Shown: positions 32,241 to 54,783 of the stretch, piece by piece | Layout: each line of letters opens with the position of its first letter | Numbering within the stretch: position 1 is the stretch's first letter | Assembly: GCF_029773605.1 (NCBI RefSeq) | Contig: NZ_CP103807.1 | Coordinates: forward strand, 930,001 to 994,000 | Source of the DNA: Actinobacillus genomosp. 2 | GTDB lineage: Bacteria > Pseudomonadota > Gammaproteobacteria > Enterobacterales > Pasteurellaceae | Reading direction: 5' to 3' | DNA length: 64,000 nt | Made by a program: the position numbers and the translations under genes | Notes under the pieces: model-generated | Told to the model about the DNA's origin: nothing | The model's database searches: none | What the model saw: only the letters and a program-made list of their open reading frames with translations

Positions 32241-32287
32241 GCACAACATCTTGTGCTTAACAACAAAACAAACACAATATATAGTAA
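32241..32287 (+). promoter_or_regulatory. Two NrdR-like boxes upstream of nrdG-nrdD
   Basis: GCACAACATCTTGTGC (32241-32256) and ACACAATATATAGTAA (32272-32287) match the 16-base NrdR consensus at 12 and 14 positions and start exactly 31 bp apart, three helical turns, the usual tandem spacing. The second ends 14 bases before the nrdG ATG and covers a likely -10 (CAATAT). The remainder of the 374-bp rnfA-nrdG gap (31928-32301) is AT-rich, with an uptake-core pair and nothing else I can assign. Confidence 0.75.
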
Positions 32288-32301: not shown

Positions 32302-32769
32302 ATGGAAAAACTCAGATTCTGTTCCGAACAGATTGTTTGGCAAGAAGTACCGAACGAAACTTCGCTCGCTTTTATGATGACAGGCTGTCCGATCGGCTGT
32401 AAAGGGTGTCATAGCACTGAAAGTTGGAAAGCTGGAAGCGGTCAAATTTTGACTGAAACTTACCTACATCAACAACTCGAAAAATATGATGGCTTAATCA
32501 GTTGTGTCTTATTTTTAGGGGGCGAATGGCAAGCCGAATCTTTATTAACATTATTGAAATTTGTCAAAGCCAAAGGGCTAAATACTTGCCTTTATACAGG
32601 GCTAGAAAAAAACGAGTTACCCGAGGCCTTATTGGCTGAATTAACCTATCTAAAAACAGGGCGATGGCTCGCTGAGCGAGGGGGATTAGATAGCCTCACA
32701 ACCAATCAACGTTTTATTGATTTACGCACAAACGAAAACCTTAACCACTTATTTCTCAAAGGAGTTTAA
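32302..32769 (+). CDS. nrdG: Anaerobic ribonucleotide reductase activase NrdG
   Basis: The 155-residue radical SAM protein has the cluster motif at C29-C33-C36 (CPIGCKGC) and the following HSTESW typical of NrdG. It generates the glycyl radical on NrdD using SAM. It precedes nrdD by 5 bases, the reverse of the order in E. coli. No good ribosome site is visible before the ATG, so translation may start inefficiently. Confidence 0.93.
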   Translation: MEKLRFCSEQIVWQEVPNETSLAFMMTGCPIGCKGCHSTESWKAGSGQILTETYLHQQLEKYDGLISCVLFLGGEWQAESLLTLLKFVKAKGLNTCLYTGLEKNELPEALLAELTYLKTGRWLAERGGLDSLTTNQRFIDLRTNENLNHLFLKGV

Positions 32770-32774
32770 TCATT

Positions 32775-34556
32775 ATGATCCGCTTAACACCGAATCAAGT
32801 TGAAGGAAAATTAGACTTTATCCATCATTATTTACACGCCAAAAATGCAGCTGACGGCTCAAAAATGGATGCAAATGCCAATGTTACGCAAAAAAATATT
32901 GCGACAATGGAAAATGAAATGATGAAAGACTTCTTTGTGCAAATTAACCGAGCAAAAGTAAGCAACAAAATTGCCGAATTATTTGATGAAGAACTTTCGG
33001 GCGAATACTTACGTCAAATTGAATCACACGAGATCTATGTACACGATGAAACGAGCCTCAAACCATATTGTGTTTCTGTCACAATGTATCCTTTCTTGCG
33101 TGACGGACTCACCAAATTAGGTGGTGAATCTAAAGCACCAAAACACCTTGCCTCATTTTGTGGTTCGTTTGTGAATTTCGTGTTTGCCGTTAGCTCACAA
33201 TTCGCTGGAGCAGTCGCTACCGTTGAATTTCTCACCTATTTTGACTATTTTGCCCGTAAAGATTTTGGTGATAACTATTTAGAAACCCACCGTAGTGAAA
33301 TCGAAAATCACTTACAGCAAGTGGTTTACAGCATTAACCAACCGGCAGCTGCACGTGGTTATCAAAGCGTGTTCTGGAATATTTCGCTGTATGACAAACA
33401 CTATTTCGATGCAATGTTTGGCAATTTTGTGTTCCCTGATTTTGAACGTCCAAATTGGGAAACGACTTCTGCCTTACAAATTTTCTTTATGAAATGGTTT
33501 AACCAAGAACGCACTAAAGCGATTTTAACTTTCCCAGTAGTAACGGCAGCAATGCTGACCGAAAACGGCAAATGCAAAGATAATCAATTTGCCGATCAAA
33601 TGGCAGAAGAGCTTTCGCAAGGTAATTCATTCTTTATTTATCAATCAGATAATCCTGATTCACTTGCTTCTTGCTGCCGTTTACGTAATGAAATCTCGGA
33701 TCACACTTTCTCTTATTCATTAGGCGCAGGCGGTGTGGCGACCGGTTCGATTAACGTCATTACTATTAATATGAACCGTTTAGTGCAAGATGGGCGCAAT
33801 TTAGAAGAAGAAGTCGGCAAAATTCATAAATACCAATATGCTTACCGTAAATTAATGGAAGAATATTTAGAAGCAGGAATGCTACCGGTTTATGATGCGG
33901 GATTTATCTCTTTAGATAAGCAATTCCTCACGATTGGTATTAATGGAATGGCGGAAGCGGCCGAATCACAAGGGCTAACTGTCGGTTATAATCCGGATTA
34001 TATGCAGTTTGTACAAAGCCGTTTAAAAGTGATTTTTGAAGCAAATCAGACCGCTTCTAAAAAATATGGCGTGAAATTCAATACCGAATTTGTACCGGCA
34101 GAAAATCTTGGTGTGAAAAACGCAAAATGGGATAAACAAGACGGCTATTTTGTGTCCCGTGACTGTTACAACTCCTATTTCTATGTGGTTGAAGACGAAA
34201 ACACTAATGCTTTGGATAAATTCTTGCTCCACGGAAAAGAACTCATTGAGTGGCTAGATGGCGGCTCAGCACTTCACCTTAATTTAGATGAAGCACTTAC
34301 TCAAAGCGGCTATCGATCATTACTTGATATTGCGGCAAAAACCGGCTGCAACTATTTCTGTATTAACGTGAAAATCACCATTTGTAACGAATGTGCACAT
34401 ATTGATAAACGCACCTTATGCAGTTGCTCAAAATGCGGTTCACAAAATATCGACTATGGTACACGCGTGATCGGCTACTTAAAACGCGTATCCGCTTTCA
34501 GTTCCGCCCGCCAAAAAGAACACAGTTTGCGTTTTTATCATCGGGAAGCGGCTTGA
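32775..34556 (+). CDS. nrdD: Anaerobic ribonucleoside-triphosphate reductase NrdD, short form without ATP cone
   Basis: The 593-residue class III enzyme reduces ribonucleoside triphosphates when oxygen is absent. It starts directly in the catalytic barrel (E. coli NrdD has about 100 more N-terminal residues forming the ATP cone). A zinc site is formed by CNEC and CSKC near 538-558, and the glycyl radical glycine is G567 in RVIGYLKRVSAFS. The rest, including SCCRLRNE and SLGAGGVATGSINVITINMNR, follows the family. Lacking the cone, it should not be switched off by dATP at an overall-activity site. Confidence 0.92.
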   Translation: MIRLTPNQVEGKLDFIHHYLHAKNAADGSKMDANANVTQKNIATMENEMMKDFFVQINRAKVSNKIAELFDEELSGEYLRQIESHEIYVHDETSLKPYCVSVTMYPFLRDGLTKLGGESKAPKHLASFCGSFVNFVFAVSSQFAGAVATVEFLTYFDYFARKDFGDNYLETHRSEIENHLQQVVYSINQPAAARGYQSVFWNISLYDKHYFDAMFGNFVFPDFERPNWETTSALQIFFMKWFNQERTKAILTFPVVTAAMLTENGKCKDNQFADQMAEELSQGNSFFIYQSDNPDSLASCCRLRNEISDHTFSYSLGAGGVATGSINVITINMNRLVQDGRNLEEEVGKIHKYQYAYRKLMEEYLEAGMLPVYDAGFISLDKQFLTIGINGMAEAAESQGLTVGYNPDYMQFVQSRLKVIFEANQTASKKYGVKFNTEFVPAENLGVKNAKWDKQDGYFVSRDCYNSYFYVVEDENTNALDKFLLHGKELIEWLDGGSALHLNLDEALTQSGYRSLLDIAAKTGCNYFCINVKITICNECAHIDKRTLCSCSKCGSQNIDYGTRVIGYLKRVSAFSSARQKEHSLRFYHREAA

Positions 34557-51932: not shown

Positions 51933-51960
51933 AAAAACACCACCTTACGGTGGTGTTTTT
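51933..51960 (-). terminator. Terminator of nrdB-nrdA
   Basis: ACACCACC (51937-51944) and GGTGGTGT (51949-51956) form a perfect stem around TTAC, flanked by A and T runs, 12 bases beyond the nrdA stop codon. Confidence 0.9.
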
Positions 51961-51971
51961 AATGCTTCTAA

Positions 51972-53636
51972 TTAACCTTCACAGCTAGAACAACTTAATA
52001 AGTTACGGTTAAATACTTGTGCCGCACTCATTGAGTATTGGTAATAAATTGATTTTAAACCAAGTTCTTCTGCGGTTAAGTATAATTGATTCAAGTCACG
52101 CGCTGGTGTTGCCGGATGAACCATAATATTAATACTTTGACCTTGGTCGATATATTTCTGACGTTGTGCCGCTTGTTGAATCACGCTTAACTGGCTGATT
52201 TCAGAGAAAGTTTTGAATACTTCTTTTTCTTCATCGGTTAGTTGTTCTAAGTGCTGTACAGAACCGTCATTATGTAAAATCGATTCCCAAATCTCTTCCG
52301 TATCTAAACCTTTTTCTTGGAGTAATTTCTCTAAGAACGGGTTTTTATACACGGTTTTAATCTTCGCTAAATCTTTAACATAGTAGTTAGATTTAAACGG
52401 TTCAACCGATGGCGATACGCTACCTAAAATAAAACTACTTGATTTAGTCGGTGCAATACTCATTAAAGTGGTATTACGGCGACCGTAGCCTTTTAAGATT
52501 TCCGGCTCACCAAAACGTTTTGCTAACTCTTGTGATGCTTTTAAGGTTTTTTCTTGTAATGTTTTAAAGATTAAATTGTTTTTTTGCATTGCTTGAAAGC
52601 TATCAAACGCAATGTTATTCGCTTGTAAATAGCTATGCCAGCCTAAAACACCTAAACCTAATGCACGATGGCGAGTGGCAAAGCGATTTGCTCGTTCTAA
52701 GAACGGCATATTTTGGCTTTTCTCGATAAACTCACTCATGACCACATCTAAGAAGTAAGTTAACACTTCAGGTGCATCCGTATCCTTCCACTCATCAAAA
52801 TAGAGTAAGTTCATTGAAGACAAGCAGCAAACGAAACTCTCGTCAGAATTAGACGGAAGCATAATTTCGGTACATAAGTTTGATGCGTGTACCGTCATAT
52901 TTTTATCTTTATACACGTCCGGGCGACCAGCATTCGCATTATCTTTAAAGAATAAATACGGAATACCCGTTTCCGTTTTACGTTGTAAAAGTTTTGCCCA
53001 AAGTTGACGTTTATATGGGTCACCCGCTTTCATTGATTCTAACCAATCATGACCGACACATACGCCGTAATACATTAATTGGATTGGGTTACCTTCGGTA
53101 TGAATATCTAACCATTCGTCAATATCGCCGTGTTCAATATCGATATAACCGGCAAATTGGCCTTTACGTGACGTACCTTGAGAAATAACGTCAATCACCG
53201 TATCAAACAATTTACTAAAGTTGAACGAACCGTCTGATTTACCGTTATTTTTAATTGCCGAACCACGCGGACGAATATCACCGAAATAAGCGGAAGTACC
53301 ACCACCGATTTTACTCATCATCCCCACTTCAGCAGTCGTCACCATAATTTCGTGGATTGAGTCACCGATGTAGCTACCAAAACAAGAAATCGGTAAACCA
53401 CGATCTAAACCGAAATTCGACCAAATCGGAGAAGAAAGTGAGAAATAACCACGTGCCATATAGTGATAGAATTTATCCGCATAACCTTCGATACCGAGTT
53501 TATGCTCCGCATGTTCAGCGATAAAACGAATACGCTCTAATGCGGTTGTTCCTTCAAGTAAGTAACCACGTTGTAAAAATAAGCGGCTATCTTCATTTAG
53601 CCATTCAAAATCAGGGCGAGTATTAGAATAAGTCAT
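51972..53636 (-). CDS. nrdA: Ribonucleoside-diphosphate reductase large subunit, compact type without ATP cone
   Basis: The 554-residue catalytic subunit is much shorter than E. coli NrdA (761). It begins straight in the catalytic barrel domain, so the N-terminal ATP cone is missing. Catalytic residues are present: C85 (PISCFG), N253, C255 and E257 (NLCTEI), C270 (FVCCLSS), Y531-Y532 for radical transfer, and C549/C552 as the reducing tail (CSSCEG). Sequence features (FSLSSPIWSNFGL, GMMSKIGGGTSAYFG) resemble the NrdA of Bacteroidetes and class Id systems. It overlaps nrdB by 14 bases. Reduces ribonucleoside diphosphates aerobically. Confidence 0.9.
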   Translation of the reverse strand: MTYSNTRPDFEWLNEDSRLFLQRGYLLEGTTALERIRFIAEHAEHKLGIEGYADKFYHYMARGYFSLSSPIWSNFGLDRGLPISCFGSYIGDSIHEIMVTTAEVGMMSKIGGGTSAYFGDIRPRGSAIKNNGKSDGSFNFSKLFDTVIDVISQGTSRKGQFAGYIDIEHGDIDEWLDIHTEGNPIQLMYYGVCVGHDWLESMKAGDPYKRQLWAKLLQRKTETGIPYLFFKDNANAGRPDVYKDKNMTVHASNLCTEIMLPSNSDESFVCCLSSMNLLYFDEWKDTDAPEVLTYFLDVVMSEFIEKSQNMPFLERANRFATRHRALGLGVLGWHSYLQANNIAFDSFQAMQKNNLIFKTLQEKTLKASQELAKRFGEPEILKGYGRRNTTLMSIAPTKSSSFILGSVSPSVEPFKSNYYVKDLAKIKTVYKNPFLEKLLQEKGLDTEEIWESILHNDGSVQHLEQLTDEEKEVFKTFSEISQLSVIQQAAQRQKYIDQGQSINIMVHPATPARDLNQLYLTAEELGLKSIYYQYSMSAAQVFNRNLLSCSSCEG

Positions 53637-54603
53637 CTGCGGTAATCTGCTTCATTTTTTTGCTGTAATCAGTACTACGTTTGTTAAAGAAATCTGTTTC
53701 TTTCGTTGACAGGATTTCAATATCAAACCACTCAGTTTCTTTTAGTAATTCAGGATTTACATCGTATGGCGGCTCTAAACCTAGCGTCATTAACGAGTTG
53801 TTATAACGGCTACGAATATAGTTTTCTACCGCTTCACGACTAATAAAGCTTAAATCGCCTTCTTCAAAAATCCAATCTAAAATGCCACATTCCGCCTCAA
53901 ACGCTTGAGTAGATAGGGTCTTTAATTCTTCAAAAAATTCCGGAGTGAAAAGCTCACTGTGTTCATCACGTAAAATTTCGTATAACGCAATACCGAATTT
54001 ACCATGAATCTCTTCTTCTTTTGACGTTGCTTCAACCGCATTAGAAATCCCTTTAAACAGGTTTTTATGCTTATTGAACGACATCATAATTAAGAACTGA
54101 CCGAATAATGAAATATGTTCTACGAAAAGAGAGAATAAAACGAGTGAAAGCACAAATTCACCTTTACCCGCATCTTTATCTTTCATGAACGATTCCATAT
54201 AACGAATACGGTTCATTAACGGCTCAATGTCTTGGATTTGGCTAAACATTTCGTTTAAGCCTAATTTTTCTAATAAAAACGAGTATGCATCTTTGTGACG
54301 AACTTCCGACTCTGCGAATGTACCGCCGACATCATCCATTTCCGGTTTCGGGAAATAGCGATATAGTTCACCCCAGAAACGTTTTACGTTTACTTCCACC
54401 TGAGAAATCGCCAACATCGCTCGTGTTAAAACGTGACGTTCATGATCATTAATATCAATACGATAGTTCTGAATATCACCAGTAAAATTAAACTCTGTAT
54501 GTAGCCAATAGGAATGGCGAATCGCATCTTTAAATTCTAATAATTCAGGATATTCATACGGCTTGATATTCAAGCGTCTTTCAAAGAGATTTCTTTTTGA
54601 CAT
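53623..54603 (-). CDS. nrdB: Ribonucleoside-diphosphate reductase small subunit, class Id-like
   Basis: The 326-residue radical-generating subunit has a complete metal site: E70 (AISQVEV), E100 and H103 (ESEVRH), E162 (FVEH), E197 and H200 (EEEIH), with Y107 at the radical-tyrosine position. The first ligand is Glu in place of the usual Asp, and spacing throughout equals that of the Flavobacterium johnsoniae class Id subunit shifted by three residues (as I recall, Y104 there). Class Id enzymes use a dimanganese cofactor activated by superoxide without NrdI. No nrdI or nrdH is adjacent here. It has no ATP cone. It is first in the operon, ahead of nrdA. Confidence 0.88.
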   Translation of the reverse strand: MSKRNLFERRLNIKPYEYPELLEFKDAIRHSYWLHTEFNFTGDIQNYRIDINDHERHVLTRAMLAISQVEVNVKRFWGELYRYFPKPEMDDVGGTFAESEVRHKDAYSFLLEKLGLNEMFSQIQDIEPLMNRIRYMESFMKDKDAGKGEFVLSLVLFSLFVEHISLFGQFLIMMSFNKHKNLFKGISNAVEATSKEEEIHGKFGIALYEILRDEHSELFTPEFFEELKTLSTQAFEAECGILDWIFEEGDLSFISREAVENYIRSRYNNSLMTLGLEPPYDVNPELLKETEWFDIEILSTKETDFFNKRSTDYSKKMKQITADDLF

Positions 54604-54736
54604 AATTCTCTAGCTCAAAGTAAGGTAACAATAGGCGGCGATTTTAGGGAAATTTTTTTGCAATCACAAGTCTTGACAAACGCGCTTTTTAGTTAGTCTT
54701 TTGATTTATAAAGAAAAAATTTTTTGTCAATTTATA

Positions 54737-54783
54737 AATCAATATCTAGTGTTTTCTTAATAAAAATTTACTAGATATTGTAT
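54737..54783 (-). promoter_or_regulatory. Two NrdR-like boxes upstream of nrdB-nrdA
   Basis: On the minus strand ACACTAGATATTGATT (54737-54752) and on the plus strand TTACTAGATATTGTAT (54768-54783) match the NrdR consensus at 13 and 12 of 16 positions and start exactly 31 bp apart, as in front of nrdG. The core CTAGATATTG is the same in both. Within the 353-bp gap (54604-54956) I also see TTGACA at 54725-54730 on the minus strand, an uptake-core pair at 54878-54931 and nothing else. Confidence 0.7.

Follow-up and report, generated by a model that had tools for sequence, protein, structure and literature searches.

Class Id ribonucleotide reductase operon of Actinobacillus genomosp. 2: relatives, putative NrdR control and distribution in the Pasteurellaceae

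The class Id ribonucleotide reductases (RNRs) studied so far are described, in the excerpts of the literature cited here and below, as enzymes in which superoxide, or less efficiently hydrogen peroxide (H2O2), converts Mn(II)2 to Mn(IV)Mn(III), the cluster itself initiating the radical (PMC8463856, PMC6754362). Their mark is a Tyr/Glu pairing, with a Glu as the first metal ligand and a Tyr in the second sphere (PMC8463856); this Tyr is kept off by a Thr, and a Lys marks an open channel (PMC8463856, PMC6754362). In the Lys subgroup, Lys and Trp are located 4 and 7 residues past the first ligand, respectively (PMC6754362), and the catalytic subunits of the NrdAi subclass have a median length of 564 amino acids (PMC9669993). 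Here, we analyze an operon of this kind, nrdBA, found in a 64,000-nucleotide stretch (the window) of contig NZ_CP103807.1 of Actinobacillus genomosp. 2 (assembly GCF_029773605.1, positions 930,001 to 994,000). It is a compact two-gene operon on the minus strand, with an overlap of 14 bases, coding for a radical-generating subunit (NrdB, 326 residues, 53623 to 54603) and a catalytic subunit (NrdA, 554 residues, 51972 to 53636). Positions and lengths are as given in an earlier reading made from the letters of the window (the sequence-only reading).

This enzyme is already known down to the genus, since NrdA is nearly identical to PDB entry 6dqx (547 of 554 residues equal and seven different in an alignment, as counted by eye), which PMC8350387 names as the class Id NrdA of Actinobacillus ureae, class Id in A. 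ureae has been mentioned in PMC9936198, and a relative of NrdB is found in the PDB as 8dq3. We regard it as an ordinary class Id member, and no functional difference from the A. ureae NrdA is expected. Entry 6DQX is reportedly that of Rose et al. in 2019. NrdB shows a rounded identity of 100% to the proteins of A. ureae and Actinobacillus capsulatus, and its best PDB match was 8dq3 (76.0%), followed by the proteins of Leeuwenhoekiella blandensis (54.0%) and Flavobacterium johnsoniae (40.6%). The 8dq3 sequence is letter-identical to the Aggregatibacter actinomycetemcomitans protein at locus L066, so it probably comes from this species; it shares all the signature residues, although in Aggregatibacter the gene order is nrdA-nrdB. 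The class Id enzymes of L. blandensis and Facklamia ignava (NrdBi) have the same metal site and the same Lys, Trp and Thr signatures but are described as bearing an N-terminal ATP cone, which is missing from the Actinobacillus NrdB. Neither the A. ureae NrdA nor, as described, the F. johnsoniae enzyme has an ATP cone, and the latter presents the same site and mechanism marks.

Signature residues and class assignment

By direct reading, NrdB has the complete metal site that the sequence-only reading had listed (E70 as first ligand, E100, H103, E162, E197 and H200) as well as Y107; K74, W77 and T193, which were not on that list, are the remaining members of the class Id set. E70 and Y107 form the Tyr/Glu pairing, K74 and W77 show the Lys-subgroup spacing, and T193 corresponds to the Thr that keeps the Tyr off the metals. 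All ten positions were invariant in the 73 rows of an NrdB alignment composed of the window protein, 69 loci and 3 PDB sequences (from 70 loci, L106 was left out as a shorter match, and row L097 was kept despite three internal stops). The constant offset of three from F. johnsoniae, also claimed earlier, holds for the first sites (K71/K74 and Y104/Y107) but drops to two after a one-residue gap (T191/T193; F. johnsoniae numbers from PMC8463856).

NrdA reached 851.5 bits for the NCBIfam equivalog TIGR02510, above its cut-off of 602.25, and, with 554 residues and a C-terminal CSSCEG cysteine pair, is a short cone-free catalytic subunit. The ATP cones that had been described as missing from both subunits were indeed not found by profile search (PF03477) in NrdA or NrdB at E values up to 1. 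NrdB, which matches PF00268, was over no NCBIfam cut-off, including those of classes Ia and Ib; its best score was to a general beta-subunit model (155.9 of 237 bits), with only 19.1 of 346 bits for the class Ia beta model PRK09101 and 42.3 of 355 bits for NrdF, the class Ib beta subunit. These values bear on whether the resemblance to class Id could be superficial, the enzyme belonging to class Ia or Ib and using a tyrosyl-radical cofactor that is either di-iron or activated by NrdI. A Tyr is retained at the radical position (Y107), but the first ligand beside it is E70 instead of the Asp of classes Ia and Ib, and this Glu, K74 and W77 are class Id marks present in every aligned row. Moreover, the search for nrdI proposed in the sequence-only reading gave no match in the genome itself or in any of 140 Pasteurellaceae genomes, against 3 of 14 control genomes, and the class Ia pair of the genome sits at a separate locus. 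We consider a class Ia or Ib identity extremely improbable. The class Id-like assignment made beforehand is upheld by the signature residues, the TIGR02510 score and the lack of an NrdI match, and we place a probability of about 0.92 on the operon being the Actinobacillus class Id RNR (phylogenetic subclass NrdAi/NrdBi), with a Mn/superoxide mechanism and probable NrdR repression.

Because all the residues of the class Id mechanism are present in NrdB, the best inference is that metal, oxidant and radical route would be the same as in the studied relatives. Most probably, NrdB holds a pair of Mn(II) ions that would be oxidized to Mn(IV)Mn(III) by superoxide, or with lower efficiency by H2O2, arriving at the exposed site past K74; this cluster would directly initiate the transfer of the radical to the NrdA active-site cysteine, with Y107 kept from the metals by T193 and NrdI presumably not needed for activation. 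The Pasteurellaceae might instead combine the class Id fold with a different working cofactor, either Mn/Fe or one assembled by H2O2, superoxide not being the physiological oxidant. In favor of this, H2O2 also builds the class Id cofactor in vitro, if less efficiently (PMC6754362), and a match to Fe/Mn superoxide dismutase (SOD), a would-be competitor, was present in 138 of the 140 genomes. However, every class Id signature residue is in place, among them the Lys described as attracting superoxide, and the two genomes with no Fe/Mn-SOD profile match (G114 and G115; Cu/Zn SOD was not searched for) both bear class Id, although two cases prove nothing. We judge such a departure from the Mn/superoxide mechanism unlikely.

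The class Id enzyme is not the only option of this cell, since its genome (G000, a single contig of 1,883,708 bases rated 81.9% complete) also holds class Ia and class III enzymes. The search for a second nrdAB, suggested earlier, retrieved a class Ia pair at C1:764170-766922, with nrdA as a 761-residue open frame containing an ATP cone. The class III genes are found on the plus strand of the window (32302 to 34556), as nrdG (32302 to 32769; named from its position and sequence, with no family match) and nrdD (32775 to 34556; PF13597 match). NrdD was found in two kinds in the Pasteurellaceae, one of ca. 600 residues (PF13597 E value of ca. 1e-105 to 1e-112) and one of ca. 710 residues (ca. 1e-190). 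That of the window belongs to the short kind, along with those of G002-G008, G046-G049, G054-G056, G067-G070, G089-G095, G103 and G104, and those scanned had no ATP cone.

As for the surroundings of nrdBA, a probable intrinsic terminator (12-pair stem and T tail) follows nrdA at 51933 to 51960 on the minus strand. A Dus-type gene is located upstream, and adenosine deaminase (Add) and NfuA genes are located downstream (names from our reading of the sequence); homologues of the three also flank the class Id operon in A. capsulatus and A. ureae. The order nrdA-nrdB was seen in five Aggregatibacter loci (L066 and L068-L071) and two Trueperaceae loci (L099 and L100), and all other Pasteurellaceae loci examined had nrdB-nrdA.

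Relatives and origin of the class Id operon

In both NrdB trees (72 and 59 rows), Pasteurellaceae and Cardiobacteriaceae formed one clade with 100/100 support, the Cardiobacteriaceae being nested inside this gammaproteobacterial class Id clade. Its stem was long (1.26 and 1.87 changes per site), indicating that any acquisition was not recent. The smaller tree kept 59 of the 73 aligned rows after removal of two Trueperaceae rows, L097 and eleven near-copies. The Trueperaceae appeared as the sister group in the 72-row tree (97/86), where a meeting of long branches was flagged, and the sister group was unsupported once their rows had been removed. There was no sign of a recent phage transfer either, as all tblastn matches in 760 phage records were below 60% identity, the best listed being those of Staphylococcus phages (53 to 54%); the trees were built without phages.

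The sequence-only reading had seen in this pair a Bacteroidetes type that suggested horizontal acquisition. The spread of class Id in the family is patchy (51 of 140 genomes), L. blandensis provides the closest solved NrdB outside the Pasteurellaceae, and although F. johnsoniae clusters with Niabella outside the gammaproteobacterial clade, constraining the three into a joint clade was not rejected (p-AU of 0.276), which leaves the suggestion partly supported. A Bacteroidota donor nevertheless fits poorly with a single gammaproteobacterial clade on a long stem, shared with the Cardiobacteriaceae, and with the presence of class Id in 22 of 43 Pasteurellaceae genera. The F. johnsoniae protein is only 40.6% identical, and the relatives found outside the Gammaproteobacteria (42 to 56% identity) were mostly at 52 to 56% and belonged to Bacillota, Mycoplasmatota and Patescibacteria, the nearest being mostly from Bacillota and Patescibacteria, with Niabella at 42%. 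Bacteroidota were thinly sampled (3 rows). Overall, we find acquisition from Bacteroidota improbable.

All nine outside relatives picked for a long open N-terminal extension contained an N-terminal ATP cone, from which we infer that the gammaproteobacterial lineage probably lost one. L. blandensis was the sole cone-bearing Bacteroidota row, and Flavobacteriales have been described as predominating among such sequences (PMC5794259), which leaves a Bacteroidota donor some probability.

Putative NrdR control and conserved promoter elements

The NrdR regulon is marked by paired boxes of about 16 bp, roughly three helical turns apart, in upstream regions. Scoring against this consensus (maximum of 32, presence threshold of 24) revealed two NrdR-like boxes on the minus strand, ATACAATATCTAGTAA (54768 to 54783) and ACACTAGATATTGATT (54737 to 54752), which precede nrdB by 180 and 149 bases, respectively. 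The pair, 31 bases apart, scored 27; in 300 shuffles, made within 20-base blocks, no score was as high (P = 0.003). The class Ia operon and nrdGD also have pairs with this 31-base offset upstream, scoring 29 and 27, respectively (that of nrdGD at 32241 to 32287, with an 11-base core match containing one mismatch at 32275 to 32285), shuffles having been run for the nrdBA pair only. Thus, all three RNR operons of the genome are preceded by NrdR-like boxes.

Comparison across the family was done on strand-oriented loci, with nrdB sought on both strands and the rows of an unoriented scan (L009-L037) disregarded. A box pair scoring at least 24 was present in 17 of the 18 genomes where an ATP-cone frame of NrdR length was found, compared with only one of the 8 lacking such a frame (Fisher P = 0.00009, relatedness ignored). 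For the first 25 genomes, the figures were 16 of 17 NrdR-positives (P = 0.00013), and G089 (score of 28) was added afterwards. This parallel loss of NrdR and boxes supports real NrdR control. Several points weigh against it. The correlation in the first 25 genomes was weaker at stricter thresholds (P values of 0.0005 at 25 and 0.03 at 26), the positives G085, G087 and G088 consist of one strong and one weak box, and the NrdR-positive G135 fell short with a score of 23. In addition, the table omits two class Id-bearing genomes for which an ATP-cone result was available, G138 for having no locus sequence and the Aggregatibacter genome G013 because nrdA precedes nrdB in this genus (the nrdB-upstream stretch of the named Aggregatibacter loci, with this order, had no boxes). 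Finally, the sole genome with boxes and no NrdR found is that of the window itself. An NrdR-length ATP-cone frame is present in its congener G002, and the nrdR gene may lie in missing sequence, since the assembly is rated only 81.9% complete.

Taken together, the boxes and their co-occurrence with NrdR suggest that NrdR probably represses nrdBA transcription. The sequence-only reading saw no overall control by dATP, and for the enzyme this holds, as the missing ATP cones would leave it with no dATP on/off switch, but perhaps not for the operon. Through NrdR repression, nrdBA and the class Ia and class III operons that this genome also carries would all be coupled to deoxynucleoside triphosphate levels, and transcriptional control may compensate for the missing switch, though not where NrdR is lacking.

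Between the boxes and the start codon, a consensus scan pointed to a likely sigma-70 promoter, TTGTGA-17-TAAAAT (54641 to 54669, minus strand), with a conserved -10, although shuffled sequence gave more promoter-like matches than this region did (mean of 11.7 versus 6). In an alignment of 15 Pasteurellaceae promoters selected for having the TTGTCAAG element, two other elements on this strand were conspicuous: a largely conserved CTTTwwAAATCAA block, here CTTTATAAATCAA (54701 to 54713), and TTTGTCAAG, just upstream of the -35 (54672 to 54680; the only exact copy in the window). With no preselection, 23 of the 36 named gammaproteobacterial loci had an exact TTTGTCAAG at about the same position, counting 21 of 30 from Pasteurellaceae and 2 of 6 from Cardiobacteriaceae. 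In total, 30 of the 43 promoters examined had the element and 13 did not. Its distance to a TANAAT -10 was 33 bases in 20 of the 30, 32 in 9 and 31 in one, refuting the fixed distance of 33 bases that two promoters had suggested by eye. When sites for SoxR, FNR, CRP, OxyR, Fur, IscR and Rex were compared by eye to TTTGTCAAG using consensus sequences, none fitted (no systematic scan for Fur or Mn regulators was made). The 1.8-kb stretch around an Fe/Mn sod gene (L114) contained no exact copy and a single one-mismatch match, as expected by chance. The element was kept in six of the seven NrdR-less genomes other than that of the window, the exception being G111 (L062).

Genomes with class Id as the sole detectable reductase

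Within the 140 Pasteurellaceae genomes, PF00268 and PF02867 matches were each found in 139 and NrdD in 131. Class Ia and class Id coexist in 31 genomes, 20 have class Id only, 88 have other class I enzymes and no class Id, and one (G047) has neither. Class Id is therefore the sole class I RNR in 20 of the 51 genomes that bear it (G046, G048, G049, G054-G056, G067-G069, G083-G089, G098, G102, G115 and G137). Each of these has one PF00268 match, at the class Id place, and three PF02867 matches with a best E value of 1e-34 to 1e-37, the pattern of class Id NrdA (class Ia gives ca. 1e-135 to 1e-142); among the matches listed, PF02867 places were seen for 10 of the 20. Two individual genomes deserve comment. 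G047 (99% complete, one contig) gave no PF00268 or PF02867 match but did contain NrdD and an ATP-cone frame of NrdR length, and its congener G046 carries class Id. In G001, rated 5% contaminated, the class Ia nrdA matches (C1:1148303-1149597) are split between two reading frames, one of them interrupted by a stop, likely a sequence error.

In the 140-genome profile search, NrdD was not found in six of the Id-only genomes: G083 and G084 (metagenome bins; L058 and L050), G086 (Pasteurellaceae bacterium Macca; L053), G102 (Nicoletella semolina DSM 16380; L059), and the single contigs G115 and G137 (L110 and L111). With no class Ia or II NrdA pattern, class Id is the only detectable RNR in these six. 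NrdD loss is not peculiar to Id-only genomes, since G027, G135 and G136, which possess class Ia, also lack it. Among 31 genomes selected for a search with the ATP-cone profile (28 of them Id-bearing), there was no match in G083, G086, G102 and G115, and only NrdR-length frames matched in G084 and G137, which agrees with the absence of another RNR there. Since Pasteurellaceae have been characterized as facultative anaerobes (PMC13076348), reliance on an oxygen-derived RNR alone would be odd, and a check of these six genomes is worthwhile.

The evidence tips slightly in favor of class Id having replaced the iron-dependent class Ia in about 20 Pasteurellaceae species and being the only RNR in about six, of which four have no ATP-cone protein of any kind (neither NrdR nor a cone-bearing reductase) and no NrdR boxes. 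Such cells would make all their DNA precursors by a superoxide-dependent Mn enzyme with no known dATP sensor, and TTTGTCAAG may mark a regulator that persists in most NrdR-less genomes. Class Id as the sole RNR in Pasteurellaceae was not reported in the titles and abstract openings found, while RNRdb or the 2018 and 2019 papers of Rose may hold it.

There is no need to rediscover the enzyme itself; the tallies across the family are useful, the sole-RNR species are the freshest point, and the conserved promoter element is the other lead worth keeping. According to the available text of a 2023 review, it is uncertain how class Id can depend on scavenging superoxide in vivo in the face of dismutases (PMC9936198). 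Growth tests of species with class Id as their only detectable RNR could answer this question, and species with both class Ia and class Id allow the deletion of either enzyme. The sole-Id species would be natural hosts for testing whether cellular superoxide can sustain an RNR.

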